A stretch of 41,284 nucleotides of DNA from positions 1-41,284 of the forward strand of contig CANNFB010000019.1 in NCBI GenBank assembly GCA_947503785.1, written 5' to 3'. The number at the start of each line of letters is the position of its first letter. Within the stretch, counting starts at the first letter, position 1. Source of the DNA: an uncultured Campylobacterales bacterium. Its GTDB lineage: Bacteria; Campylobacterota; Campylobacteria; Campylobacterales; Arcobacteraceae. A model generated the notes under the pieces. It did no database searches. It had not been told where the DNA came from and saw only the letters and a program-made list of their open reading frames with translations. Of this stretch, positions 3,001-31,453 are shown piece by piece. The position numbers were made by a program, and so were the translations under genes.

Positions 3001-5309
3001 ACATCTGTGGCAATTAGTGTTCCTACTTGTCTATTTGAACCACCATTCTCTACTACAGAATTTGAAGATAATGATATATCTGTTGGGGATTCATTTTGAT
3101 TTGTTACAGTAATAGTAAAAGACTCTTCATAAGTAGCGTTACTTACATCTGTTACTCTAACTCTAATTGAGTATGAAGATTTTGTTTCATAATCTGCACT
3201 TGATGTTAATCTTAGACTAGTTCCTGAAATATTAAAGCTTCCATTATCTGTATCTCCAGTTCCAGATACTAAAGTATATGCTGCGATATCCCCATTATCC
3301 ACATCTGTCGAGCTTAATGTTCCAACTGTTGCATTTGCTCCTGTATTCTCTGCTACAGAGTTTGAAGATAATGATATATCTGTTGGTCCTTCATTTACAT
3401 TTGTTACAGTAACAACTACTGCTCTTGTATCACTTCCATCATTTCCAGTAGCAGTAATATTCAGATCATACACATTATTAATACCACTATCACTAGCATT
3501 CTCAAAATCAGGAGCTACTTTGAAAGTTATTTCACCTGTAGAGCTATTTATATTAAACTTATCTGCATCTGTTCCACTTATAGAAAAGCTGGAAACATTA
3601 ATTGCATCGATATCTACAACTACACTTGTATTATTTTCTGCAAAAGAGATAGCGTCTAGATTTGTATTTGTAATAGCTACAAATTCAGTTTTTATAGGTG
3701 TTTGCCCGTTAGGTTTTATAGTTCCAGTATAACTGTTTTGTGAGCGATCTATTACAGTAGTACCACTTGGTTCATTAAAGTTATAATATGCAATCAAATC
3801 TGTTTCATTTCCATCAAGTTCTTGAAGCATATTTGCTTGAATCTCTTGGGCTGTTCTTATATCACCCCAGATACGAACTTCATCTATTTTTCCATCAAAA
3901 AATTCATGAGGCGTAGCACTTGCTCCAATTCGCAGGGGAGAAGCGAGATCACCAGTACTCCCAATATAATCAGTTCCTGTTTGAACTAGCACACCATTAA
4001 TATATGCTTTTACAGTACCTGTTGCACTTTCCCTAGTTGCTGCTACATGAACCCATTGACCAGTTGGTATAACTTCTGCTGTAGTAATACTACCATCATC
4101 AACCCAGTCAGTCATATTATTACCTACATTAAGATGAAGTTTGTTACTATCAAGTAGCATAAATGTAAAACTACCATCTTTTCTTACAATATCTTTGTTA
4201 ATACCAATACTATCAACATATATCCACGATTCCAAAGAAAAATCGCTTAGATTATCAAGATTATCTCCCATATCTACATAGTCATCAGTTCCATCAAACT
4301 CTAAAGTACGGTTTGTATTATCCACAACTATACTATAAGTTTTTGTAGAACTCAAAGCATCAGCAGTAGCATTTACCTCTACACTATAAGTTGCATTTGT
4401 TTTTGAGTCATTAGGATCTGCAAAAGTTAGAACTCCACTACCACTGTCTATATTAAATTTAGCTGCATCTGTTCCACCGCTTATACTATAGCTTACTCCC
4501 CAACCATCTGTTGATGAAGTTATTTGATAAATAGTGTCATCATATTTAGTAGTAGTTATATTTGCATCATCTAAAGTAAGTGTTGTTGGAGATGAGCTCG
4601 GCCTTGGAGGAGTTGCTGGAAAGTTTGTTAAAGTTCCTGTGTAACTATTGGTTGAGCTATCGCTTGCTGTTGTTCCGCTTGTTTCATTGAGCTTATAATA
4701 AGCTACTAAATTACCTTCATTACCTGCAAGCTCATTGTTCATCTCCGCTGTTATTTCATCAGCTGTTCTTACATCCTTCCAGATACGAAACTCATCTATT
4801 TTTCCATCAAAATATCTATTTGTATCATTAAATGCCCGACCAATAGTAAATCCATTTCTAGGGTCAAATGTAGCACCAAAACTAAGCTCTCTTACCAATA
4901 CTCCATTAATATAGAGCTTGATATACTCAGCACTTTTAACAACCATCGAAACATGTGTCCAAGTGCCTGTGGGAATCGCGGAAGGATCAACATATACTCC
5001 ATAGATATTATTATCCGTCGTACCAATACCAAATCCAATAGTACCATTGTAGTGTTGTCCAAAATGAACACCCTCTACTATACCACTATTTGTACCATCA
5101 AAATAGTGTTCACCTGCGATACCTCTAAAACTATCCCAAACATCAGGATTAACCCAAGCAGATATGGTAAAGTCATCACCAAAAGCTGATTGATCTAAAC
5201 CTGTGCTTATGTAGTCATTAGACCCATCAAACTCCAGTGAATTGTTTACAGCATATAAAGATGTCCAACTCATCGTAAATAGAAATAATATACTCAAAAA
5301 CTTTTTCAT
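1..5309 (-). CDS. Giant secreted LamG/cadherin-repeat surface protein (3' end beyond window)
   Basis: The reading frame is open from the ATG at 5309 to the left edge, giving 1,769 codons without a stop; the C-terminus is missing. GAGGG lies 6 bases before the ATG. The protein begins with a signal peptide (MKKFLSILFLFTMSW, cleavage near LYA). Two concanavalin-like LamG modules follow, around residues 20-190 and 335-490, each opening with LEFDG and closing with the GKIDE(F/V)RIW signature. From about residue 520 on there are tandem cadherin-type and Ig-like repeats (SVAENTG, DADKFNI, SSADYETKSSYSIRVRVTD, SGTPTN). The visible end becomes rich in Thr/Asp/Gly (NPDGTTTVV). Such proteins are usually exported adhesins or biofilm matrix proteins, often by type I secretion; the C-terminal export signal cannot be seen. 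The neighbouring two-component pair is a plausible regulator. Confidence 0.9.
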   Translation of the reverse strand, partial: MKKFLSILFLFTMSWTSLYAVNNSLEFDGSNDYISTGLDQSAFGDDFTISAWVNPDVWDSFRGIAGEHYFDGTNSGIVEGVHFGQHYNGTIGFGIGTTDNNIYGVYVDPSAIPTGTWTHVSMVVKSAEYIKLYINGVLVRELSFGATFDPRNGFTIGRAFNDTNRYFDGKIDEFRIWKDVRTADEITAEMNNELAGNEGNLVAYYKLNETSGTTASDSSTNSYTGTLTNFPATPPRPSSSPTTLTLDDANITTTKYDDTIYQITSSTDGWGVSYSISGGTDAAKFNIDSGSGVLTFADPNDSKTNATYSVEVNATADALSSTKTYSIVVDNTNRTLEFDGTDDYVDMGDNLDNLSDFSLESWIYVDSIGINKDIVRKDGSFTFMLLDSNKLHLNVGNNMTDWVDDGSITTAEVIPTGQWVHVAATRESATGTVKAYINGVLVQTGTDYIGSTGDLASPLRIGASATPHEFFDGKIDEVRIWGDIRTAQEIQANMLQELDGNETDLIAYYNFNEPSGTTVIDRSQNSYTGTIKPNGQTPIKTEFVAITNTNLDAISFAENNTSVVVDIDAINVSSFSISGTDADKFNINSSTGEITFKVAPDFENASDSGINNVYDLNITATGNDGSDTRAVVVTVTNVNEGPTDISLSSNSVAENTGANATVGTLSSTDVDNGDIAAYTLVSGTGDTDNGSFNISGTSLRLTSSADYETKSSYSIRVRVTDVSNATYEESFTITVTNQNESPTDISLSSNSVVENGGSNRQVGTLIATDVDSGDGATFSLVSGAGDTDNSSFNISGTSLNLSSSADYETKSSYSIRVRVTDGVGETYEESFSISITDVNERPTSENSSITINEDSSKTFASSDFNFTDIDSGDSLDFVVINFPPSKGSLKLNNIDVIASQSIAVSDLANLIYTPVADENGTSYTTFTFYVNDGSLSSVSYYTMTINVTAVNDAPTITGTPDTTIAEDGTYNFLPSGNDVDNADTLSYSITNKPDWANFSNLTGQLSGTPTNTHVGTTTGIVITVKDNATPSLSTSLSAFDLTVTNTNDAPTASNFTITTNEDTPYTFVDTNFNYIDVDNDDLDHIQITTIPVSGKLYKDSVELNANDTISKSNLDNLKFKFVPALNENGNSYASFSFQVNDGTVYNGSSKTVSINVNAVNDKPTIITNLTDENKAEDFATFTKDIEINDVDKDNLSLNATTASSIITLSEGWTNPISLANYNNSQVQTLTIDSVLNKFGIATVNIDVSDGTLNDIKTFKVNVPAVLDFPNISSEEINLSEDFNTFDITLTNIDLGAQSSGTITIVPSNTSIYAVPAPITITSADSGTKVITLTSKDNIFGNTTATITVDNGVDTAVSKTVIINVKSVNDTPTIIGSASTGASQNVAYSFTPTASDVDVGDVLTFSITNKPSWASFSTTTGVLSGTPTNSDVGVTSNIVISVKDTANASTSLSSFDLTVSNVNDAPTISGTPNTSVAEDSAYTFTPTFNDVDVGDVLTFSITNKPSWASFSTTTGVLSGTPTNTHVGTTSNIVITVNDDATPNASASLAAFDITVTNTNDAPTASNFTITTNEDTLYTFVENDFNFTDADNGDVLDSVIISSLPMKGTLKLNNVDVAINQSIAVSDITTLVYTPVLNENGAPYTTFEFKVNDGDVSSVSSYTTTINVTAVDDGKFVNTTPNGDSIDVDLEGDITTTIDVNGVKTVETSDSTITINLNGDINITTPKGSSISILNGSGDVQISQDANGNVTTTTTNPDGTTTVVTIKPDGT
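571..655. repeat. 85-bp intragenic direct repeat, second copy 2104-2188
   Basis: Positions 571-655 and 2104-2188 match with a single mismatch, offset by 1,533 bp (511 codons). Both encode the end of a cadherin-like domain and the linker to the next (ASNFTITTNEDT). The offset covers several domains, so a multi-domain block may have been duplicated. Confidence 0.85.
743..845. repeat. 103-bp intragenic direct repeat, second copy 1025-1127
   Basis: Positions 743-845 and 1025-1127 are identical except for one base (759 against 1041), offset by 282 bp, exactly 94 codons. They encode the same Ig-like module twice (SITNKPSWASFSTTTGVLSG core). A diverged third copy lies near 2270-2370. Near identity at the DNA level points to recent duplication or gene conversion. 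Confidence 0.9.
2846..2900. repeat. 55-bp intragenic direct repeat, second copy 3146-3200
   Basis: Positions 2846-2900 and 3146-3200 differ at one base and are offset by 300 bp (100 codons). They encode the strand ADYETKSSYSIRVRVTD of two adjacent cadherin-type repeats in the giant surface protein. Confidence 0.85.
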
Positions 5310-8226: not shown

Positions 8227-9195
8227 TTACTCAGCTAATAAGTTTCTATAAAACTCTCTATAGTTTGTATCTTTTTCATCTCTAGCTTTCATAGCTGGTC
8301 TTGGATGTTCGTTTAGTTGTCCAGTTAACATATATGGAATACTATAACCCCAATCTAATTCTTTTTCTAATGGAATTATAAACTCTTCAATGAATTTTAA
8401 TACTGGCATTAATTTATATTTTGGATTCTTTAAAAATCCAATTAAAAGTTCCATTGGACAGTTTCCAGCACCTCTTCCTAATCCTGAAATAGTAACGTCT
8501 AAGTAAGAAGTTCCATAAGTTAAAGCTTCAATAGTATTAGCGTATGCTAATTGTAAATTATTGTGAGCATGAATACCAACTTGTTTACCATTTGCTTGTG
8601 CGATTTTTAAATACTTTTCAGTTAATTTATTGATTTGCTCAGGGTAAAATGAACCAAATGAATCTGCAATATAAATTACATCAACACTAGATTTAGCAAC
8701 TGCTTCTAAAACTTCATTTAACTCATCATCAAAGGATTTTGAAATAGCCATAATATTAATAGTTGTTTCATAACCTTTTGCGTGAGCTTCTTCTACAAGT
8801 TCTATTGCTGCTGGGATTTGATGAATATATGTTGCAATTCTAATCATATCAACTACAGAGTCTTCTGCTGGAAGTAATTCTTCATTTACAGTTCTTCCAA
8901 TATCAGACATAACTGCAATTTTCATATTAGTATCGTTGTTACCAACAATTTTTCTAATATCTTCTTCTTTACAGAAATTCCAAGGTCCAAACTCTTCTTC
9001 ACTCATTATAGTTGGTGAATTGTTTTTTCCAATTTCCATATAATCAATTCCTGCGGCTACACAAGTTTCATAATGTGCTTTTACAAAATCATCTGTAAAG
9101 TGAAAATTGTTTACTAATCCACCATCTCTAATAGTACAATCAAATACTTTGATGTCTTCTCTTACTGTAAGTATTGAACCTTTTCTTTCAATCAT
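8227..9195 (-). CDS. HMGL-like (DRE-TIM) aldolase catalytic domain protein
   Basis: This 322-residue TIM-barrel protein belongs to the HMG-CoA lyase-like / DRE-TIM metallolyase superfamily. The signature FDCTIRDGG gives metal ligand D19, with R23 and D24 next to it; the second metal site is H209 and H211 in GIHAHNN. An active-site loop GLGRGAGNCP follows. These enzymes catalyse aldol-type C-C cleavage or condensation through a divalent metal (HMG-CoA lyase, 4-hydroxy-2-oxovalerate aldolase, isopropylmalate synthase). The protein is shorter than isopropylmalate or homocitrate synthases and lacks their regulatory domain, so the substrate cannot be assigned. AGGAAG precedes the ATG. It is a single-gene unit ended by the 8177-8208 hairpin. 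Confidence 0.85.
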   Translation of the reverse strand: MIERKGSILTVREDIKVFDCTIRDGGLVNNFHFTDDFVKAHYETCVAAGIDYMEIGKNNSPTIMSEEEFGPWNFCKEEDIRKIVGNNDTNMKIAVMSDIGRTVNEELLPAEDSVVDMIRIATYIHQIPAAIELVEEAHAKGYETTINIMAISKSFDDELNEVLEAVAKSSVDVIYIADSFGSFYPEQINKLTEKYLKIAQANGKQVGIHAHNNLQLAYANTIEALTYGTSYLDVTISGLGRGAGNCPMELLIGFLKNPKYKLMPVLKFIEEFIIPLEKELDWGYSIPYMLTGQLNEHPRPAMKARDEKDTNYREFYRNLLAE

Positions 9196-21731: not shown

Positions 21732-22703
21732 TTATAGAAATCCCATCTCTTTCATTAAAGAACCAATAACTTCTTCTTGTTTCTCTAAAAATGATTTGAA
21801 TTCAGCTCTTGGTTGATATAAGTTTGCCCAACCATTTCTTTTTCTAACAAGTTCCCATTCAGGTGTGTCATACATTTTTCCAATTACATCAGCAAATGCT
21901 TGTGTTTTTTCTTCTGAAAGGTTTGGAGCACCAAAGAAACCTCTCCAGTTTGCAAAAAATGCATCAGCACCCATACTTTTAAAACTTGGAATTCCATCAA
22001 TATCTTTATTTGCAGTAACTCCAATAATTTTAAGTTCACCTCTTTTATGTTTTTCTAATACTTCTCCAAGACCAGTCGATAAAACATCTACTTCCCCTGT
22101 TAATAATCCAGCTAATGCTTTTCCTCCTGCATCATAAGGTACATATCTTACACTTGTTGGGTTTCCACCAGCAGCTTTAAAAATTTGTGCAGCAACTAAG
22201 TGATCCATTGAACCTCTAGAGCTTCCACCTGCAATTTTTACTTTTCTTGGACTTTTTTCAAAAGCAGCTTTTACATCAGCCCATGATTGGTATTTTGAGT
22301 CTTTTTTCACTACTAGTACACCATAATCAGCAACAACAGAAGATACTAAAGTTAAATCTCTAAAAGATTGAGGAAATACACCTTGAAGTGATCTAATTAC
22401 AATTGGAGTTGAATTTACCATTAAAGTATTTTGTTGTTTTTTTGCAGTTTCAATAATATAAGCAATAGCTTTACCTCCACCACCTCCTGACATATTTTCA
22501 AAAGAAGTTTCTTGTACTAAGTTTGATTTTTTTAAAGCTTCACCAACACCTCTAGCCGTACCATCCCAACCACCACCAGCACCACCTGGAATTAAGAAGT
22601 GAACTTTATCAACACTTGAAGCCACTGAAGATGTAGCTAACCCTGCAACTAAACATCCTGCGAATGCAAGATTTTTGTAAACTTTTGTCATTGAATTTTT
22701 CAT
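21732..22703 (-). CDS. tctC: Tripartite tricarboxylate transporter substrate-binding protein TctC
   Basis: A 323-residue periplasmic binding protein of the Bug/TctC family with a signal peptide (about 1-28, cleavage near SVASS). The family core is visible: VHFLIPGGAGGGWDGTARG at the ligand-binding start, ENMSGGGGGKA, AGGSSRGSMDHLVAA, and RYVPYDAGGKALAGLLTGEVDVL. It delivers a carboxylate to TctAB. The particular substrate cannot be read from sequence. AAGGAC precedes the ATG; it is the first gene of the tctCBA-regulator-kinase operon. Confidence 0.95.
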   Translation of the reverse strand: MKNSMTKVYKNLAFAGCLVAGLATSSVASSVDKVHFLIPGGAGGGWDGTARGVGEALKKSNLVQETSFENMSGGGGGKAIAYIIETAKKQQNTLMVNSTPIVIRSLQGVFPQSFRDLTLVSSVVADYGVLVVKKDSKYQSWADVKAAFEKSPRKVKIAGGSSRGSMDHLVAAQIFKAAGGNPTSVRYVPYDAGGKALAGLLTGEVDVLSTGLGEVLEKHKRGELKIIGVTANKDIDGIPSFKSMGADAFFANWRGFFGAPNLSEEKTQAFADVIGKMYDTPEWELVRKRNGWANLYQPRAEFKSFLEKQEEVIGSLMKEMGFL

Positions 22704-22819
22704 AATAGTCCTTTTGTTTTTTGTTATAAGCAGTTTAAAGAAAAAAAATGTAAGAAAAATAAAATTTGATTTTATATTCTTAATTTAAAAAAAGCTCAAA
22801 ATAGAAAATAATAGAAAAC

Positions 22820-22836
22820 TAATGATAAAATCATTA
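22820..22836. promoter_or_regulatory. 17-bp palindrome upstream of the HD-GYP pseudogene
   Basis: TAATGAT and ATCATTA flank an AAA centre, a perfect 7-bp inverted repeat 28 bases before the ATG at 22864, in the divergent interval shared with tctC. It may be an operator or chance in AT-rich sequence. Confidence 0.3.
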
Positions 22837-22863
22837 TCTAATTTATTAGAGGAATATAATATT

Positions 22864-25240
22864 ATGAAAAACTTTTCGATAAAACTAAGAACTAGCATTT
22901 TAGGTTTGTTCTTTGTTGTTTCAAGCATACTTGTGTCTATAACACTTTTAGTTGAATATAATTTAAGTAAAGACATTGCTTTAAATGCAACTAAAAAACC
23001 TTTTGATAAACTATCATTAGATGTAATTGATCATTTAAATACTTTTACAAAAGAAAGTAATAGTTTTATAAATATTGTTGAAAATATTGATTCTCTATCA
23101 TTTTTACCTAAAAAAATGAATCTCATAATTTATTAGAAGTAATAACTTCAACTTTAACTCTTCGAGATTATATATCTTCAATTTATATAGGCTAGGAAGA
23201 TGGAAGATATTATGAGGTTTTAAATCTAAGCAATAATAAAAAGTTTATGAATAAAAAAAAATCTCCAAAAAATTCAAAATGGTTTATAATAAAAATTTTA
23301 TTTGAAAATGGTAAAAAAGTTCAGTATGAAGAGTTTTTAGATGAAAATCTTACTCAAATAGCATCTTTTAAAAAAGATGTTGCTTTTAATCCTAGTACTA
23401 GGACTTGGTATAAAAAAGCCATTTCTTCTTCATTGATGATAAAAACAAAACCTTATTTATTTACATACTTAGAAAAGATTGGGCTAAGTTATGCAAAAGA
23501 AATAAAAAATAAAAAAGGTATTGTTTTAGGTATTGATATTACATTAGATAGTTTGAATAATTTAATAGGGAAACAAAAACTATTAAAAAATAGTGAAGTT
23601 TTTATTTATAAAGAAAACGGAGAAATTATAACATATAAAAAAATAAGAACTTCATCTACTAAACTTAGAAAAAATATTTCTGAACATTATTCACAATTAA
23701 AATCTTTAAATAAAGAGCAATATCGTATAAAAATAGATTCACAAGAGTACTTTCATAATAAATATAAAATTACTAATAGCGAATATTTACAAATTCTTAC
23801 TCCTCTTAAAAGTATAATGAACCCATATATTGAAAAATATATCAATATATTCTTATATCAATTCTTTTATTTTTAATAATTTCTATTCCTTTGATATTTT
23901 TTAGTTCAAATTTAATTATAAAACCTTTAATGAGAATGATTGATGAAAATAAAAAAATAAAAAATAGAGAGTTTGAAAAGGTAGTAAAAGTTGATTTTTA
24001 TATTTTGGAAGTTAATGAACTTTCAGAATCATTATTTGATATGTCAAAATCCATAAAAGATTACCAATTGAGTCAAAGAGAATTAATGGATTCGTTTATA
24101 AAACTAATAGCTACAGCAATTGATGATAAATCAAAGTATACCGGAGGGCATTGTAATCGAGTTCCTAAACTAGTAATGATGATTATAGAAGAAGCGAATA
24201 TCTCGAAAGAGGGTGTTTTTAAAGAATTTAATATAAAAAATAAAGAAGAGTTAAGAGAAATAAATATTTCAGCATGGCTTCATGATTGCGGAAAAGTAAC
24301 TACTCCTGAATATGTTGTAGATAAAGCTACAAAACTTGAAACTATTTATAATAGAATCCATGAGATTAGAACAAGGTTTGAAGTTATAAATAGGGATTTA
24401 ATTATTGAATCATATAAAAAACTAAAATTAAATGAAGATGAAAATACTGTAAAAAAATGGCTTAAAAATGAACAAAAAAGCTTAAAAGAAGATTTTGAAT
24501 TTGTTGCTAGTATGAATATTGGAAATGAATTTATGAAAGATGAAGATAAAGAAAGAATTAAAAATATTGCTTCAAGAAAATGGATGAGATATTTTGATAA
24601 TACTTTAGGTTTATCAAAAGAAGAATTACTTAGATTCAAATCTAGTGATAAAAGCTTCCCTATTCTTGAGAATTTATTGTCTAATAAAAATTGGCATATC
24701 AAAGATAGAGAAGATTCAAGTTTAGAAGAAGATAAGATATATGGATTTAAAACTCCAATACCTAAAGACCTTTATAATTTTGGAGAAATATATAATTTAA
24801 CAATTTCAAGAGGAACTTTAACAGAGGAAGAGCGATATAAAATTCAAGATCATATAAAAATGACAATAAAAATGCTTGAACAATTACCTTTTCCTGATAA
24901 TCTAAAAAATGTTCCTTTATTTGCAGGAGCTCATCATGAAACATTAATAGGTACAGGATATCCTAGAAAACTTGTAAAAGAGCAAATGCCATTACCAGCA
25001 AGAATTCTTGCGCTAACAGATGTTTTCGAAGCATTAACAGCTTCTGATAGACCATATAAAGATAGTAAAACATTGTCAGAATCTATTAAAATACTAAGTT
25101 TCATGGTTAAAGATAAACATCTTGATAAAGAAGTTTTTGAACTATTTCTAAAATCTGGGGTTTATTTAAAGTATGCAGAAGCATATCTTAAAAAAGAACA
25201 AATTGATGAAGTTGATATTAGTAAGTATTTAGAAAAATAA
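22864..25240 (+). pseudogene. Cache-sensor HD-GYP phosphodiesterase, broken by two frameshifts and a stop
   Basis: Three frame segments together make one protein of about 790 residues. Segment one (ATG 22864, AGAGGA before it) has a TM helix and Cache start, and frameshifts near the A7 run 23110-23116. The shifted frame continues (ESHNLLEVITSTLTLRDYIS) to an in-frame TAG at 23193-23195, then resumes through the rest of the Cache domain (FNPSTRTWYKKA, GIVLGIDITLDSL). A second shift lies near 23830-23860, inside TM2. The last frame (to 25240) holds an intact HD-GYP domain: TGGHCNRVP, WLHDCGKVTTPEYVVDK, AGAHHETLIGTGYP, ALTDVFEALTASDRPYK. The family degrades cyclic di-GMP. The catalytic part is intact but lacks its own obvious start. 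Confidence 0.85.
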
Positions 25241-25252
25241 ATTGGATTATAA

Positions 25253-25312
25253 TGGCAGACAATATCGGATTCGAACCGATGGTAGATTACTCTACGTTAC
25301 CCTTCCAAGGTA
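25253..25312 (-). repeat. Distal attachment site: tRNA-Ser 3' fragment (60-bp direct repeat)
   Basis: This matches 31365-31424 over 60 bp with one difference, an A at 25289 where the other copy has G, in the variable-arm loop. It includes CCA, T-arm, variable arm and anticodon region. The match stops just after the anticodon stem, so it cannot encode a tRNA. It starts 12 bp after the HD-GYP stop codon. Confidence 0.92.
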
Positions 25313-25427
25313 ATTTTACAATCATAAATCTAAAATACTATTAGTCCAAGTATGCTTATATATCAACGCTGGAGACATTAAACTAGAGTTGAATAATACT
25401 ACTAGAAAACATAAAAATAACTTAACT

Positions 25428-25907
25428 CTATCTTGTATTGTGTATCGTTTTGTGTATTATTCTTAGATTAGAAGTTAGGTTCATTAATGCATATTGAACA
25501 CCTGAGCCATTTCTAGCATTTAGTAATCCATCAACAACCCATTTAAGAATTTTAACTTTGAACTGAGGGTTTAACCACATAGCAATATCTACGAAGATTT
25601 CAGGTGCAACCCAAGTTCCTTTATTCAACTTACCTCTTTTAATACTTTTGAGTAAACCTCCGTTTTCAGAGGTTTGCTTTTCGAGTAAACCCGTAGATTC
25701 CCGTGTTTGGTTTTCAAGTGCTTCTAGGAACTCATTTGTGGATTCCATTCGCCAATAATCATCAAGCCTTCTCGGAGTAAGTCCCATAGCAACTCTATTC
25801 TCATTAAAGCCATCAACTAAATCTGTTACATTGAACATCTCAGTTACATTTGATTGTCTAACAACAACGTTACCTAGAGTCCTTTCCATAAATACTTCTG
25901 TTTTCAT
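25428..25907 (-). CDS. KilA-N domain protein
   Basis: A 159-residue protein with a KilA-N DNA-binding-like domain, best seen at 97-127 (KGTWVAPEIFVDIAMWLNP followed by QFKVKILKWV). The first third (VRQSNVTEMFNVTDLVDGFN) also fits the start of that domain. KilA-N proteins are phage or plasmid proteins thought to bind nucleic acid. The ATG at 25907 is chosen because AAGGAG lies 10 bases upstream; the frame could start at 25970 but without such a site. The last codons overlap the 20-bp repeat 25439-25458. Residues 66-92 hold a short imprecise repeat (ENQTRESTGLLEKQTSENGGL). Confidence 0.85.
   Translation of the reverse strand: MKTEVFMERTLGNVVVRQSNVTEMFNVTDLVDGFNENRVAMGLTPRRLDDYWRMESTNEFLEALENQTRESTGLLEKQTSENGGLLKSIKRGKLNKGTWVAPEIFVDIAMWLNPQFKVKILKWVVDGLLNARNGSGVQYALMNLTSNLRIIHKTIHNTR
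25439..25458. repeat. Putative integrase arm-type site, left end
   Basis: This 20-bp sequence, TGTGTATCGTTTTGTGTATT, is identical and in the same orientation at 31288-31307, near the other end of the element. Each copy contains TTGTGTAT twice, 12 bases apart. It lies 126 bp inside the left attachment repeat. Tyrosine integrases bind such paired direct repeats through their N-terminal arm-binding domain. Confidence 0.7.
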
Positions 25908-25929
25908 CTTAATGTGTCTCCTTCTAACG

Positions 25930-26151
25930 CTAATGCGTTTCTTTCCAATTCGCTCCAATCTTTGCTTCACCTTCTAAAAGGATTCTAAAGTTGAAATGTT
26001 CAGTCACTTCTAGGAATGACTCTACACATATCTCAGCCACTTTCTCGGCATACTTATCTAACACTTGTATCTGTACTTCATCAAGACCACCCTTGAAGTA
26101 ACTTGACCTGCTGTAACTAAACACAGGAATTGAGTTCTTTTGTATCTTCAA
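25930..26151 (-). CDS. Hypothetical 73-residue protein
   Basis: The open frame ends at 25930, just upstream of the KilA-N gene. The only plausible start is TTG at 26151 (an in-frame stop lies nine codons upstream) and no Shine-Dalgarno precedes it. The product has a helix-rich centre (VLDKYAEKVAEICVESFLEV) and no family was recognised. It lies 22 bases from the KilA-N ATG and could be co-transcribed with it, or could be the tail of a truncated gene. Confidence 0.4.
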   Translation of the reverse strand: MKIQKNSIPVFSYSRSSYFKGGLDEVQIQVLDKYAEKVAEICVESFLEVTEHFNFRILLEGEAKIGANWKETH

Positions 26152-26175
26152 GTGATGATACAGTGTTGTTTCTTA

Positions 26176-26217
26176 TTCTGTCAGAACATATCAGAGCTAA
26201 TATATAGAAGTCTGACA
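26176..26217. promoter_or_regulatory. Inverted TGTCAGA/TCTGACA pair in a divergent promoter region
   Basis: TTCTGTCAGAA (26176-26186) is an 11-bp palindrome, and TCTGACA at 26211-26217 is the exact reverse complement of TGTCAGA at 26179-26185. The pair lies in the interval between the leftward KilA-N unit and the rightward zinc-ribbon gene, where a phage-type repressor would be expected to act. Confidence 0.45.
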
Positions 26218-26308
26218 ATAGCTTTATTGAATTGGAGGAGATGAAGGCTTCAGGATGAGGTACAGAAGAGTTATTGTATACTTGATAAAAACATTAAGGA
26301 TTAGAAAT

Positions 26309-26770
26309 ATGGATATTGCATCAGGTATAGCTTCTATACAACTAGCGTTAGATTTATCTAAAGGTATTAAAGCAAGTAAAGACCTTATGAATAATGGAGA
26401 AGTAAACTTACAGATTATTGAGTTAATGGAGGCATTAGTAGATGCAAAAGGAGGACTAGTTGAAGCTAAGAATCAAATAGTAGATAAAGATAAGCTTATT
26501 ATGGAATTACAAAAGAAACTTAAAGTAAGTAGTAATATTTTTGATAAAGATAATAGCCCTTTTGTATGGATGAAAAACAAAGAAGAAAAAGACATAGCTT
26601 ACTGCTCTAAGTGTTATGCAAAAGATGGTATTTTAGCAAAGGTTATGAATGATAGACCAATGCAGAACTTGGGAACACATCAGTGCCCTGTATGTGAATC
26701 ATGGTTTGGTAAGAAAAAGGACCCTCAATCAGAATTAGATAAAGCTTTTGGGGATGTATTTGGAAAATAA
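26309..26770 (+). CDS. Zinc-ribbon protein of phage type
   Basis: A 153-residue cytoplasmic protein. The N-terminus (MDIASGIASIQLALDLSKGI) and helical middle (about 30-75, likely coiled coil) are followed by a zinc ribbon with C99/C102 (YCSKC) and C126/C129 (HQCPVC). Uncharacterised proteins with this start and a C-terminal zinc ribbon occur in prophages. The ATG at 26309 has AAGGA 10 bases upstream; the frame opens earlier at 26255 but without a well-placed site. It is transcribed opposite to the flanking genes of the element. Confidence 0.65.
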   Translation: MDIASGIASIQLALDLSKGIKASKDLMNNGEVNLQIIELMEALVDAKGGLVEAKNQIVDKDKLIMELQKKLKVSSNIFDKDNSPFVWMKNKEEKDIAYCSKCYAKDGILAKVMNDRPMQNLGTHQCPVCESWFGKKKDPQSELDKAFGDVFGK

Positions 26771-27056
26771 ACAGATGATAAGACACACCTACGTAGTAAG
26801 TCACACTTAAAGACATCCTATACTAATCTTATGACATCAGTCTAAGTGTTTATTGATTAGGAGTTACATAAGGATGAGTATAGTAATTCTTTATCTTACC
26901 TATACTGCTACTTATGTTATTACCTATATTAATATTAGTTAAGGATTCAACAAAAGTATTCCTTTGTTATCTATTTCTATCTCACTTTAGTTTAACTAAC
27001 TAGAGTTTTTCTTCAACTATATATATACCATCCTTACCTTTTTGGTCATACTATAT
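26771..27056. other. Intergenic region with a possible 22-residue ORF (26874-26942, plus strand)
   Basis: No conventional gene is seen. An ATG at 26874 with AGGAG 10 bases upstream opens a 22-codon frame (MSIVILYLTYTATYVITYIN plus two residues) that would make one hydrophobic helix. Otherwise the sequence is AT-rich with no strong hairpin. The peptide is speculative. Confidence 0.3.
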
Positions 27057-27500
27057 TTATATAGCTATTTCATAAACACCTGTTCCTGTCTGTGTTATAG
27101 GTTCATCATCGGTATTATTAATATTATAATAGTTCAGTACCTTTTGAGAAAACTCATAATTCGACTTCTTACTTCTACCAATATCAAATCTTTCAGAATC
27201 TTTCTTTATCGCTTTTTTGCCTATATACCATTTGTACTTTGTTGACCCGACTTGAACAATTCTTAGATATCCTAACTCCGTTAACTCTTCTTTAGCTTTA
27301 AAATATGGCCTACGTGAAACTCCAAGTATTCTACAAGCTTTTTCATCTGCTAAATCTCCATCTTTTATATTCTCATAATAGATTAGACTCAATAGTTTAA
27401 ACGCATTAGCTGATAATTCAAGAACTGCCTCTTTCATTATTACTCTAGATTTTGTAACAGTAGCAACATATCTCCTTTTTGTTCTTCTTTCTTTTTCCAT
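27057..27500 (-). CDS. Winged-helix DNA-binding protein, possibly replication or regulatory
   Basis: A 147-residue basic protein. Its centre (about 25-90) reads as a helix-turn-helix of replication-initiator/RepA or phage-regulator type: LELSANAFKLLSLIYYENI, then ACRILGVSRRPYFKAKEEL as the recognition part, then a wing (YLRIVQVGSTKYKWYIG). The C-terminal 50 residues look disordered. The ATG at 27500 is preferred because AAGGAG lies 11 bases upstream; the ATG at 27509 is only 2 bases from it. It could be an initiator for a plasmid phase of the element or a transcription regulator. Confidence 0.65.
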   Translation of the reverse strand: MEKERRTKRRYVATVTKSRVIMKEAVLELSANAFKLLSLIYYENIKDGDLADEKACRILGVSRRPYFKAKEELTELGYLRIVQVGSTKYKWYIGKKAIKKDSERFDIGRSKKSNYEFSQKVLNYYNINNTDDEPITQTGTGVYEIAI

Positions 27501-27808
27501 CTCCTTCATCTCTCCTTATTTTTGTTAAGGAATTCACAGGTAAACCTTCAAAAGTTATTGAAAACTTACCTCTGATATCGTATTGTTTTATTTTGTTGAT
27601 TTTGTGGACTTCTTGTCCTATAGCGAGGGGGTTGAAGCAGAGCCCTAAAATAGGGTATTGTTAGAATTATGAAACAGGGTTAGTTTTTGGATTTAAAAGT
27701 GTTCTGTGTGAGCATCTGTGAGTCATTTATAGACCCTAGATATGAGATTATTAGTTGTAGATGTATTTAGCCTTTCAGGCATCATCTAGATGGATTAAAT
27801 CAGCTATC
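27501..27808. other. Intergenic region with short inverted repeats
   Basis: No gene is seen. The region holds CCCTAAAATAGGG (27643-27655) and the 10-bp palindrome CATCTAGATG (27783-27792). It is the likely promoter region of the winged-helix gene; the palindromes may be operator or recombinase sites, or chance. Confidence 0.35.
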
Positions 27809-27940
27809 TTACTTCTTCTTTTTCTTTCGTTTTAACTCTAGTTGATGTTTATAAAAACTCTTATCAACAATCGCAATAAGTATCAAAAATGAAATAAAAC
27901 AAATAGGAACAATGTAAACAACATCAAAAGGTAAATCCAT
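27809..27940 (-). CDS. 43-residue single-span membrane protein coupled to the recombinase
   Basis: The ATG at 27940 shares a base with the recombinase stop (TAATG), and AAAGGAG inside the recombinase tail lies 8 bases before it, so translational coupling is well supported. The peptide has a short acidic start (MDLPFDVVY), one membrane helix (about 9-25, IVPICFISFLILIAIV) and a strongly basic tail ending in KRKKKKK. The positive-inside rule puts the tail in the cytoplasm. No family was recognised. It is too short for usual gene-finding cut-offs. It could be a regulatory or toxic micro-protein of the element; this is inference. Confidence 0.65.
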   Translation of the reverse strand: MDLPFDVVYIVPICFISFLILIAIVDKSFYKHQLELKRKKKKK

Positions 27941-28623
27941 TACAGTACTCCTTTGTAATCAAGTATTCTTTTTACCTGTGTATGAGTAAAGTCTTTATCT
28001 GTTTTAGTTTTGATACCACGTTCATTCAGTCTAGTTGCAATACCACGTAAGCTCATGTCTTTCTTTTGATACCTCTTGATTGATGAGATAACTTTCTGTT
28101 CATCAGGGTTCTTCACTAGTGTCTTTGTTTTACCTTCTGTTACCACATCATAACCGTAAGGTATAGAACCTCCAAGTTTTTCACCCTTTGACTTCTTCAG
28201 ATTCATCGTTGCTTGTATTCTAGTTTTAATCATCTGTCTCTCGTAATCCGAAAATGCAGTTACAATCTGTTCCATCAGTAGAGACATTGGGTCATTTGAA
28301 TCACCATTAGTATCAACGATAATCAACTCAGCACCTTTTCGTGCTATCTCAGTCCGTATCCAACCTGTTTGCATTACATCCCTTGACAATCTATCAAGCT
28401 TCTGAACGATAACTGTGTCATCTTTCTTGATTGTGTTCAGCAGTTCCATAAGTCCTGTACGTTGTTCTAGTTTAGCTCCACTCATCGTATCACTGAACTG
28501 TTCTAGAATTGGCTCAAGGTCATTCTCTTTAGCAAAAGTGTTGATAACTTGTGTTTGTATCTCAAATGAATTAGACTGTTTGTTTTCATCTGTAGAGAGT
28601 CTTAGGTACGAATAGATAGGCAT
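27940..28623 (-). CDS. Serine recombinase (resolvase/invertase family)
   Basis: A 227-residue site-specific serine recombinase. The catalytic domain (1-145) has nucleophile S10 in YSYLRLST and the arginine motif KLDRLSRD, with the YERQMIKTR helix after it. Residues 150-225 form a short DNA-binding region in the style of the Recombinase domain (GGSIPYGYDV, SLRGIATRLNERGIKTK, THTQVKRIL). The length fits resolvases rather than large serine integrases. In an element that already has a tyrosine integrase it probably resolves multimers of a circular form or inverts a segment. It is followed by the overlapping 43-residue membrane protein gene. Confidence 0.92.
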   Translation of the reverse strand: MPIYSYLRLSTDENKQSNSFEIQTQVINTFAKENDLEPILEQFSDTMSGAKLEQRTGLMELLNTIKKDDTVIVQKLDRLSRDVMQTGWIRTEIARKGAELIIVDTNGDSNDPMSLLMEQIVTAFSDYERQMIKTRIQATMNLKKSKGEKLGGSIPYGYDVVTEGKTKTLVKNPDEQKVISSIKRYQKKDMSLRGIATRLNERGIKTKTDKDFTHTQVKRILDYKGVL

Positions 28624-29125
28624 TTGATAACTCCTTTAAGGTTGAATAGTGGTACACTTCAGTTGAACTGTTCCAAAATAGTAACAGATTTAGAGTGAAA
28701 CTGTCAAGAGCTTCGGAGAGAGAAACAACAAGAGAATACAACTCAAGAAGCCATTAAGTAGCTGAGGTAGAGAATGTAAGAATTTGTAAAGAGCGGGATA
28801 TTTGGTATCTCTTCATTTTAGGATGTAATCAATGAAAGAAGTCTCTTTTCAAGTAATCCTCCGTCTGCCTGATAGATTAGAAAGCAGATAGATATACAAT
28901 GACAAACCTAGTGATTAATAAATGCTCTCAGGGGCTTGTGTACACTTATGTATTACTTAAACAAAGAGAGATTATGGGAAGATATGAAGGAAAAAGAAAG
29001 GGCTACGGGGGGAATATTGAAGCCCTCTTCTACATATATGACCCTTCACAGATTTTTACTATTTTTTACTATTGCTTTTAGTGTTATTTTGATAGAATAA
29101 ATAAAAAAGTTATTAAGGGACCACA
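28624..29125. other. Intergenic region of the element, no convincing gene
   Basis: About 500 bases between the divergent recombinase and membrane coiled-coil genes. It should carry both promoters. CAGTTGAACTG near 28650 is a small palindrome just upstream of the recombinase gene and could be part of a res-type site. A 60-codon frame at 28899-29081 has no Shine-Dalgarno and unlikely composition. Confidence 0.4.
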
Positions 29126-30016
29126 TTGTTTATCGTTAAAATATTGTTAGTAATCATTTCAGTTGTTCTAGTTGTTAATCTCGGATTTTCACTCTTTGCT
29201 ATAGACAATACAGTAATGACTTGGATTAATGGCAAAGAATTAGATGTAACTAAGACTACAGACCTTTGGGGAATAAGAGGACAGATAGGTGATATCCTAG
29301 CAGGACATTTTTCTGCATTGGCTGTCTTTGCAATAGCCTATAGTATCATACTTCAAGTTGAAGCGAACAAACAAATGAGAGAAAGTATAGATAAACAAGA
29401 GAAAGCATTAAGACATACAGAAACTAATATTCAGCAACAAACTGAATCTAATATTGAACAAGCAACAAGTACACTTCAACAAGCAAAAGCTATAGAACTT
29501 CAAGCTAAATCTATAGAACAACAAAATGAAGCTTTAAGAATACAGTCTGAAACTCTAGAAGGACAAATAGAAGAACTTAAAGCATCTAGGGAAGAGAGTA
29601 AAAAACAAACAGAAGAATTTTTTATACAAAATATGAATGTAAAGTTAGATAGATATTACAAAATGATAGAAAGTAATGTGAATTCTATTGTTCCTCAGGA
29701 TGAAGTAGTTACATTTATGAATATTGCAGTAAAACAATTCCCTCATAGCCCAACCTTAAAAAAAGAAGAAGAAACAAAACTTGATGGATATAGGATGTTA
29801 TCCTTTAAGCTTTATCTCTTACTTGAACACATGTATTTAAATATTGAGCTTTGTAAAGAATATCAAAGTAGTCATGCAATGTTCTTAGAAGAATTTAAGT
29901 TAAAAATTCATACTGATTTTAAAATAGAAGCCATATGTATTATAGCAACAGAAGAACAAAGGGCTAAATATACTTTCTTTAAAATGCATAAGCCAAATGG
30001 AATACAAAATCCTTAA
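29126..30016 (+). CDS. Two-TM coiled-coil protein, candidate abortive-infection (PutAbiC-like) protein
   Basis: A 296-residue protein starting at TTG 29126, with AAGGGA 8 bases upstream. TM1 is at 3-26 and TM2 at about 58-76. The segment between and through TM2 (GIRGQIGDILAGHFSALAVF, then IILQVEANKQM) follows the GxxGDxxxG...Q(x)E layout of putative phage abortive infection proteins (PF16872). A long Gln/Glu-rich coiled coil spans about 77-170 with near-repeats of ATSTLQQAKAIELQAKSIEQ type. A C-terminal helical domain (about 175-290) follows. It lies next to the integrase at the end of a mobile element, the usual cargo position. The defence role is inferred; the TM/coiled-coil module also occurs in unrelated proteins. 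Confidence 0.65.
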   Translation: MFIVKILLVIISVVLVVNLGFSLFAIDNTVMTWINGKELDVTKTTDLWGIRGQIGDILAGHFSALAVFAIAYSIILQVEANKQMRESIDKQEKALRHTETNIQQQTESNIEQATSTLQQAKAIELQAKSIEQQNEALRIQSETLEGQIEELKASREESKKQTEEFFIQNMNVKLDRYYKMIESNVNSIVPQDEVVTFMNIAVKQFPHSPTLKKEEETKLDGYRMLSFKLYLLLEHMYLNIELCKEYQSSHAMFLEEFKLKIHTDFKIEAICIIATEEQRAKYTFFKMHKPNGIQNP

Positions 30017-30038
30017 CTAAAAATAAAGATGATGTATC

Positions 30039-31259
30039 CTAGTTGTAAACTAACTTATCTATCGCTTCCTTTAGAATCTCCAAAGGATAGCGACTTGCAT
30101 ACCTTCCCATCGTCATACCTTCATGTGTATGACCTAGAAGCTCTGAGATTACCAAAGGATTTACTTCCGCATACTTCAGTTGAGTAGCTAGTGTATGTCT
30201 CATGGAGTACATAACTTTTCTATCACTACAACTAACATTTGACTTTATATTACGAGAAAAGTAATGACTGATACTAGATTGTTTCACTTCAGTTAGAGCT
30301 AAGGGTAAGATTAAATGTATTCCTTTTGTTATCAAAATGTCATGAAACGGTATAATTCTATAGCTACTCCTATTTTTTAATATCTGTTTTTTATCTGTTA
30401 AATCAAAGTAATAAATATCATTTTTTGATTTTATTGAAGCTTTCCAGAGTTCAGATAATCTCATTCCTGTATAAGCAAGAGTGTAGAAAATAGCTTGTTT
30501 GTTCTCATCCTTAATACTATCAACTATTGAAAGTAAAGTCTTCATCTCTTCTTTCGTGTATGATTCTCTTTCTTCAAGTGGACTTATTGTAGATGTCATA
30601 CTTATGAACGTAGCAGGGTTATATGTTATGATTTGATGTGATTCACAATACTTAAAGAATCTCTTAATATATTTGATACAACTCTCAACGCGACCAAAGG
30701 AAAGCCTATCTTCTTTCTTTATCTTTATTTCAATAAGTTTCTTAATAGGAACACTTTTATATTGCTTTAGATTTCTAGAAGGGAGATTCTCTATTATGTT
30801 TTTTATTTTGATGAGGTCATTTAATGTTGTTTCTTTGACTTCACTCTTTTTGTTAATAAGATGAATAAATACTGATTGAAAAAAGCTAAGTACTGAATTA
30901 CGTGTAGTTAGACTGATGTCTTTTGAATTATAATACAGGCAGAAGTCATCAATAGTCTTTATATATGTATGAGTAGGCTGTAGGGGCTTATATGATGTGC
31001 TTTTATTATTCTCTAGTATATCAGTAATAAAAGTTTGACATGAAGTCTTTAGATATTCCTCTGTAGTGTTAAGTTCTGAATATAGTTTCAAAGTTAAGTA
31101 TTTGTTTAGTATGAGCGTAGCTTTTAACTTTGCTTCACTTTTATTTTTAGTCTTAAGACTTTTATTTATCTCTAATCGATTGAAGTAGGGTACTAGTTTT
31201 TTATAAACTCTTATTCTAAGTTTATAATAGCCATGTATAGTTTTTACTAAAGAATTCAT
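30039..31259 (-). CDS. int: Tyrosine integrase of the tRNA-Ser element
   Basis: A 406-residue site-specific recombinase. The N-terminal part (1-70) resembles the DUF6538/arm-binding start (IHGYYKLRIRVYKKL). A SAM-like core-binding domain is at about 95-215 and the catalytic domain at 230-400. Visible catalytic residues are R267 (AYTGMRLSEL), a lysine near 291-295, R354 and H355 (YSMRHTLAT), H377 (LLGHT) and nucleophile Y387 (GRYASRY). The usual histidine two residues before the second arginine is Y351 here minus one position (MYSMRH). It reads away from the tRNA 105 bases inside the intact attachment end, as expected for integration into a tRNA 3' half. Confidence 0.95.
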   Translation of the reverse strand: MNSLVKTIHGYYKLRIRVYKKLVPYFNRLEINKSLKTKNKSEAKLKATLILNKYLTLKLYSELNTTEEYLKTSCQTFITDILENNKSTSYKPLQPTHTYIKTIDDFCLYYNSKDISLTTRNSVLSFFQSVFIHLINKKSEVKETTLNDLIKIKNIIENLPSRNLKQYKSVPIKKLIEIKIKKEDRLSFGRVESCIKYIKRFFKYCESHQIITYNPATFISMTSTISPLEERESYTKEEMKTLLSIVDSIKDENKQAIFYTLAYTGMRLSELWKASIKSKNDIYYFDLTDKKQILKNRSSYRIIPFHDILITKGIHLILPLALTEVKQSSISHYFSRNIKSNVSCSDRKVMYSMRHTLATQLKYAEVNPLVISELLGHTHEGMTMGRYASRYPLEILKEAIDKLVYN

Positions 31260-31287
31260 TTTGTAATCTTTAAAATAAGTCTTAGTT

Positions 31288-31307
31288 TGTGTATCGTTTT
31301 GTGTATT
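31288..31307. repeat. Putative integrase arm-type site, right end
   Basis: An exact 20-bp copy of 25439-25458 in the same orientation, containing TTGTGTAT twice, 12 bases apart. It lies between the integrase start and the tRNA, 58 bp inside the right attachment repeat, so it may also overlap the integrase promoter. Confidence 0.7.
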
Positions 31308-31364
31308 GGTATGTATTTGAAACTTGAAGTAGATATTTAGATGTGTGTTGTAGAGCCTACATAG

Positions 31365-31453
31365 TGGCAGACAATATCGGATTCGAACCGATGGTAGATT
31401 GCTCTACGTTACCCTTCCAAGGTAGTGGATTAAGCCAGCTCTCCCAATTGTCT
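31365..31453 (-). tRNA. tRNA-Ser (anticodon GGA)
   Basis: Read on the minus strand, the 89-base gene has a 7-bp acceptor stem (AGACAAT with ATTGTCT), discriminator G and an encoded CCA. The anticodon loop is TTGGAAG, anticodon GGA. The long variable arm typical of serine tRNAs pairs GTAGA with TCTAC. The T-arm is ATCGG-TTCGAAT-CCGAT. Its 3' 60 bases are shared with the distal attachment site, so after integration this half is probably supplied by the element. Confidence 0.95.

Follow-up and report, generated by a model that had tools for sequence, protein, structure and literature searches.

The stretch of DNA analysed here (the window, 41,284 nucleotides) makes up the entire contig C19 of a genome of 2.76 Mb in 54 contigs. 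It carries an intact tRNA-Ser(GGA) gene (31365..31453, minus strand; ARAGORN), the integration target, together with a 64-bp direct repeat. One copy of this repeat lies inside the tRNA gene (31361..31424, minus strand) and the other, a duplicate of the tRNA-Ser 3' end, lies at 25249..25312 (minus strand). The repeat corresponds to the 3' 60 nt of the 89-nt tRNA gene plus 4 bp. The two att copies are identical at 62 of 64 positions (97%), are spaced by 6112 bp; no other repeat in the 8 kb examined comes near them in strength. They enclose 6.05 kb, an element of ~6.1 kb that is present as a single copy in its own genome. An earlier note on this DNA had described a repeat of the tRNA-Ser 3' half at both ends, and this was recovered, as 64 bp with two mismatches rather than 60 bp.

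The att copies enclose seven intact genes, one of them encoding a 43-aa membrane peptide, together with an ORF that holds a gene fragment. The compact set of about eight genes announced by the earlier note is present, but consists of seven intact genes plus the fragment-bearing ORF. Nearest the far att copy, a gene at 25428..25907 (minus strand) encodes a KilA-N domain protein of the antirepressor type (PF04383, E = 1.9e−16). Its start was placed at ATG 25907 by alignment with the proteins of two related islands (L032 and L040); a start at GTG 25970 was rejected because the longer form runs, out of frame, through another ORF (25930-26151), and the 'amidase' label of its phrog_6095 match was set aside as the match spans the KilA-N domain. 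This other ORF (25930..26151, minus strand), absent from the earlier note's description, encodes 73 aa, the last 50 of which correspond to the C-terminal tail of a T7-type family A DNA polymerase. It is followed by a gene for a 171-aa protein with two CxxC pairs (26255..26770, plus strand; phrog_1244, E = 3.5e−12) and by a conserved, mostly non-coding stretch (26764..27057, plus strand) that is kept in three related islands (L032, L033 and L035) and is a candidate origin. No clear iterons were found in this stretch, and a structured RNA was rejected, as an alignment of four sequences gave just 14 weak pairs, four of them with two-sided changes.

A 150-aa winged-helix protein is encoded at 27057..27509 (minus strand), with homologues in L032 and L036. 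It gave weak matches to phrog_186, phrog_7882 and phrog_270, and its low-confidence structural model (mean pLDDT 53) gave weak MarR/TubR-type matches. On the weak profile matches it is a candidate replication protein, or a candidate control protein. The 43-aa predicted membrane peptide (27809..27940, minus strand), which has no family match, precedes a 227-aa serine recombinase of the resolvase/invertase type (27940..28623, minus strand; PF00239, E = 1.5e−33). A conserved 73-bp sequence (29000..29072, plus strand) lies upstream of a 296-aa membrane coiled-coil gene (29126..30016, plus strand), described from its structural model and with homologues at L034 and L039. Finally, an intact tyrosine integrase of 406 aa (30039..31259, minus strand; PF00589, E = 1.6e−09; PF20172) ends the set, its start ~100 bp from the 3' end of the tRNA. 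In the profile scans, nothing between the att copies matched a capsid, terminase, portal, relaxase or secretion gene, and the tRNA was the only Rfam match in the window at the gathering threshold. The mixture of tyrosine integrase, serine recombinase, winged-helix and KilA-N proteins reported in the earlier note, the position of the integrase beside the intact tRNA and the lack of structural phage or transfer genes were all borne out.

Occupied and empty sites

Empty sites in relatives, which the earlier note had proposed looking for, do occur. A congener (G094) has no element at its intact tRNA-Ser gene, and ~30 bp separate this gene from sequence matching window position 22774. The left flank in G094 is also without the 2.4 kb between the 22774 region and the far att copy, and thus differs by more than the element. 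No third att copy was present in the sequence read around 22700-23260. Another genome, G098, has the tRNA-Ser gene without the element, but its left neighbour differs. Two further observations concern the flanks. The part of the window adjoining the far att copy (22860-25240) contains an HD-GYP-type sensor gene broken by a frameshift or stop, which is absent at the G094 site. At L077 (G093:C9) the flanks of the tRNA-Ser site are joined and the match starts exactly at the tRNA 5' end; the tRNA-Ser gene itself was not found there.

With an intact tRNA at one end, a displaced tRNA fragment at the other, a tyrosine integrase within and an empty site in a relative, the element is a tRNA-targeted integrative island by the general definition. 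On sequence grounds, it is an insertion and not a fixed locus, and is real, mobile-looking and of a known general kind. Two outcomes that the earlier note had held to speak against an island, related strains all carrying the same genes without att repeats and a larger prophage extending past the repeats, were not encountered: relatives have their own att repeats elsewhere, and the island's repeats enclose all shared modules.

Related islands across the Arcobacteraceae

Relatives were sought in 104 genomes of the family, with DNA and with the integrase as queries, and their att sites were located by self-comparison. This gave at least nine att-bounded islands in Arcobacteraceae, this element included, which range from 5.4 to 15.6 kb and mostly occupy different tRNA genes. 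Direct repeats bound the other islands at tRNA-Thr (L032, 8.3 kb), tRNA-Arg (L033, 6.6 kb; L035, 8.1 kb), tRNA-Leu (L034, 12.5 kb), tRNA-Val (L038, 5.4 kb), tRNA-Cys (L040, 6.5 kb) and the 3' part of a gene read as trpC (L037, 10.6 kb), and likewise bound L036 (15.5 kb), where no tRNA was found. The earlier note had proposed a search of related genomes for the same gene set at tRNA-Ser; att-bounded islands with common modules do occur in several genera, mostly at other tRNA genes.

Sequence identities of individual modules varied among the islands. The closest relative of the integrase, 60% identical, comes from a different genus (L031, G078:C40), and that of a congener is just 40% identical. 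The serine recombinase is 70–73% identical in three other islands from three genera, and the KilA-N protein is 69% identical to that of L040 and 53% to that of L032. This element, L032, L034, L036 and L038 have a KilA-N, Rha or AntA gene close to the integrase-distal att end; L035 has Rha-like fragments there, and the KilA-N gene of L040 is interior. The content is mosaic, with module identities that ignore genus. All gene pairs compared showed nonsynonymous divergence well below synonymous divergence, a pattern that speaks against long decay. The L031 integrase gene adjoins a second tyrosine recombinase gene, perhaps reflecting tandem islands, and L035 and L036 share nearly the same two-gene transposase/ATP-binding pair, which in L035 sits between two pieces of a serine recombinase.

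The ends of the islands are marked by a paired TGTGTAT motif. In the window, TGTGTATCGTTTTGTGTAT occurs just inside each att site in the same orientation (25439..25457 at the far end and 31288..31306 at the tRNA end, both plus strand), and the pattern TGTGTAY-N5/6-TGTGTAY has only these two copies in the 2.76-Mb genome. The islands of five other genomes (G006, G069, G089, G091 and G093) carry the motif at both ends, 33–117 bp inside the repeats, and L032, L036 and L040 have variant motifs at the same places. Across the 104 genomes the pattern matched 30 times, 15 of these in islands of this group, and a reversed control pattern matched 17 times. Given their position just inside att, the paired motifs are probably integrase arm sites.

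Strong matches to a 73-bp query, built from an alignment of the sequence at window 29000-29072, were confined to these islands and contig G089:C421, where part of a related integrase lies ~2.8 kb from the match. L034 contains two copies (4762-4836 and 8384-8532) in the same orientation flanking a block of cargo genes, a pairing that may hint at a cargo-exchange site. Beside the integrase, this element and L034 have the coiled-coil gene in a slot that in L033 is taken by a 3'-5' exonuclease; restriction-type genes were found in L034 and L037 and a type I R-M gene in L036. As this slot is occupied by other genes in sister elements, the coiled-coil gene is cargo-like, in line with the earlier reading of it as cargo. 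Its product is modelled (mean pLDDT 78, fair) as N-terminal hydrophobic helices followed by a long helix. Family searches returned only chance coiled-coil matches, comparison with phages and plasmids gave no match, and a resemblance to a putative abortive-infection family gained no support from Pfam scans. The gene probably confers a benefit on the host, possibly against phages. A homologue at L039 (9171-9935 in G068; 42%) stands alone among ordinary genes, adjoining an apparent transposase gene, and spread of the cargo gene may therefore not be limited to islands.

Phage and plasmid relatives of the island genes

The tail in the 73-aa ORF matched phrog_15971 (E = 5.4e−12) up to the very end of the profile (376/376), and matches to its 50 residues include gene 5 of T7 and T3. 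Polymerase tails also occur in three related loci with differing 5' breakpoints: in L032 the stop codon of the tail overlaps the KilA-N start, in L034 the tail is fused to an AntA-type antirepressor, and in L041 it is longer but broken. Over 50 aa, the tail in the 73-aa ORF and its L032 counterpart share 86% identity, with saturated synonymous sites; either the fragment may be under selection, or each island may recently have taken its tail from constrained phage genes. Intact relatives of the polymerase were found in the T7-like podophage sequences L060 and G447:C41 (70–72% over 50 residues), and in the T7-like podophage of G214 the polymerase gene is split into two pieces. L060 (70% over 50 aa) also carries genes for a T7-type RNA polymerase, helicase-primase, portal, capsid and nozzle. 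L071-L074 (G214:C1 and G447:C41) represent T7-like podophage genomes inside Campylobacterota genome records. In the 104 family genomes, the search for a T7-like polymerase returned nothing beyond fragments.

The KilA-N protein has relatives in phages, the integrase has distant phage matches only, the serine recombinase has one weak relative (27%) in viral contigs, and the winged-helix and phrog_1244 proteins gave no phage matches. Exact-pattern searches of a viral collection retrieved no island genes, and pattern searches likewise turned up no viral contig that has the island's integrase, KilA-N or winged-helix gene. A weak phrog_2 (terminase) match in the island's own genome is uninformative, since 11 of 14 control genomes match too, and the search for a packaging signal found none. 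Among plasmids, resolvase relatives include those on ~5 kb Campylobacter plasmids (41–42% identity), and the winged-helix protein had no match in 72,556 plasmids. At E ≤ 1e−40, the serine recombinase was found in its own genome only among 397 sampled Campylobacterota, a sample without the family's other island carriers.

Candidate explanations and comparison with known systems

We consider it reasonably probable (roughly 60%) that the element is an integrated, small, non-autonomous integrative 'hitcher', one of a family spread over several Arcobacteraceae genera, excised by its integrase and reliant on a helper that is probably a phage. The integrase would recombine the att sites, aided by the paired TGTGTAT arm motifs, and release a circle; the winged-helix protein might start replication, perhaps at 26764-27057; the serine recombinase would resolve multimers or exchange cargo; the KilA-N/Rha/AntA gene would sense or counter a phage repressor; and an outside agent, most likely phage packaging, would bring about transfer to new cells. 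This reading draws on the att repeats and intact tRNA, the element-free site in G094, the eight further att-bounded islands, the arm-like motif confined to the two island ends in 2.76 Mb and present at both ends in five other genomes, and the mosaic identities across genera with nonsynonymous well below synonymous divergence. It also draws on the regulator genes of phage type that most islands carry close to their far end, the polymerase tails of T7-like phage origin and the lack of particle, relaxase or secretion genes. Counted against it are the failure to find any T7-like polymerase beyond fragments in the 104 family genomes, which bears on the helper, the absence of island genes from the viral collection (exact patterns) and of a packaging signal, and the weakness of the profile matches on which a replication role of the winged-helix protein is based. 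The helper-dependent satellite or integrated plasmid suggested in the earlier note is at this point a hypothesis; the direct link to phages consists of the captured polymerase tail and the antirepressor-type genes only. We regard as quite unlikely the more specific proposal of a distinct family of T7-like podophage satellites in Campylobacterota that would sense or exploit the helper through an antirepressor-type gene and keep the C-terminus of the helper polymerase as a working part or an exchange scar.

The arrangement at four loci, where a polymerase tail immediately precedes an antirepressor gene close to att, together with the phage relatives of KilA-N, would also be expected of a decayed prophage, in which deletions would have reduced a temperate phage that encoded a T7-type polymerase to its now immobile left end. 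This is unlikely, as selection appears to act on the integrase, recombinase, winged-helix and KilA-N genes, the same module set recurs with fresh cargo at many sites and genera, and the T7-like phages found share only the tail and short weak matches. Those same tails and antirepressor genes, in pointing to phages, count against an integrated small plasmid or mobilizable element moved by conjugation helpers via an unrecognised oriT or relaxase, as do the lack of a relaxase in profile scans and of a winged-helix match in 72,556 plasmids; such an origin is similarly improbable, even with resolvase relatives on plasmids, including the ~5 kb Campylobacter plasmids at 41–42% identity, and weak replication-protein matches. 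A defence or cargo island without a dedicated helper, moved by general transduction or natural uptake and then inserted by the integrase, would suit the restriction-type genes of sister islands and the absence, in profile scans, of any hijacking gene known from other satellites. Nevertheless, the conservation of modules that look like replication and antirepressor functions suggests a life cycle with more to it than passive carriage, and we consider this explanation very unlikely.

For the Arcobacteraceae, this defines a family of small islands that swap cargo and can be recognised by their ends; some members carry restriction and other defence-like genes. Further islands could be found by motif (paired TGTGTAT inside the att repeat) instead of gene content, and the T7-type polymerase tails captured in these islands suggest a concrete candidate for the helper. 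Open-licence papers on this group yielded no described phage satellite in Arcobacteraceae and, among those on satellites and islands, no description of this island family, which is weak evidence given that scope. The family appears undescribed, as the earlier note had supposed for a class of small island in Campylobacterota.

The defining genes of the described satellite families (PICMI, PICI and P4) were absent in profile scans. No AlpA or primase match was found and the site is tRNA-Ser, in contrast to the int, alpA and prim at fis that define PICMI; terS, capsid-remodelling (sid-type) and P4-type primase genes, expected of PICI or P4-like elements, were absent from the same scans, as were the structural, terminase or lysis genes of a prophage and the relaxase of an IME or integrated mobilizable plasmid. 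T7-like podophages of Campylobacterota (L060, G447:C41 and G214) represent the source type of the polymerase tail, but they have genes for a T7-type RNA polymerase, portal and capsid, and otherwise share nothing substantial with the island. Tycheposons, described with a tRNA border, a tyrosine recombinase, cargo and a size of 4–200 kb (PMC10872708), fit in all four respects, a likeness by description only and not decisive because many islands have the same features; serine recombinase and KilA-N genes do not belong to that description. PICMI satellites of Vibrionaceae average 6.7 kb, require int, alpA and prim and sit at fis (PMC10803314); the element is alike in size, in having few genes, an integrase and cargo, and unlike in being without alpA, prim and the fis site. 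The tmRNA islands I23, I44 and I55 of Pseudomonas, of which I55 is transduced by a jumbo phage, share a tmRNA/tRNA site, direct repeats, a tyrosine integrase, varied cargo with defence genes and no genes for their own transfer, but have alpA and a shared 18-kb region (PMC12595487). The islands described here, of 5.4–15.6 kb and known from sequence, have instead KilA-N/Rha/AntA genes, a serine recombinase, a winged-helix protein and a polymerase tail. By analogy, the Pseudomonas tmRNA islands and the PICMI satellites are the nearest functional parallels.
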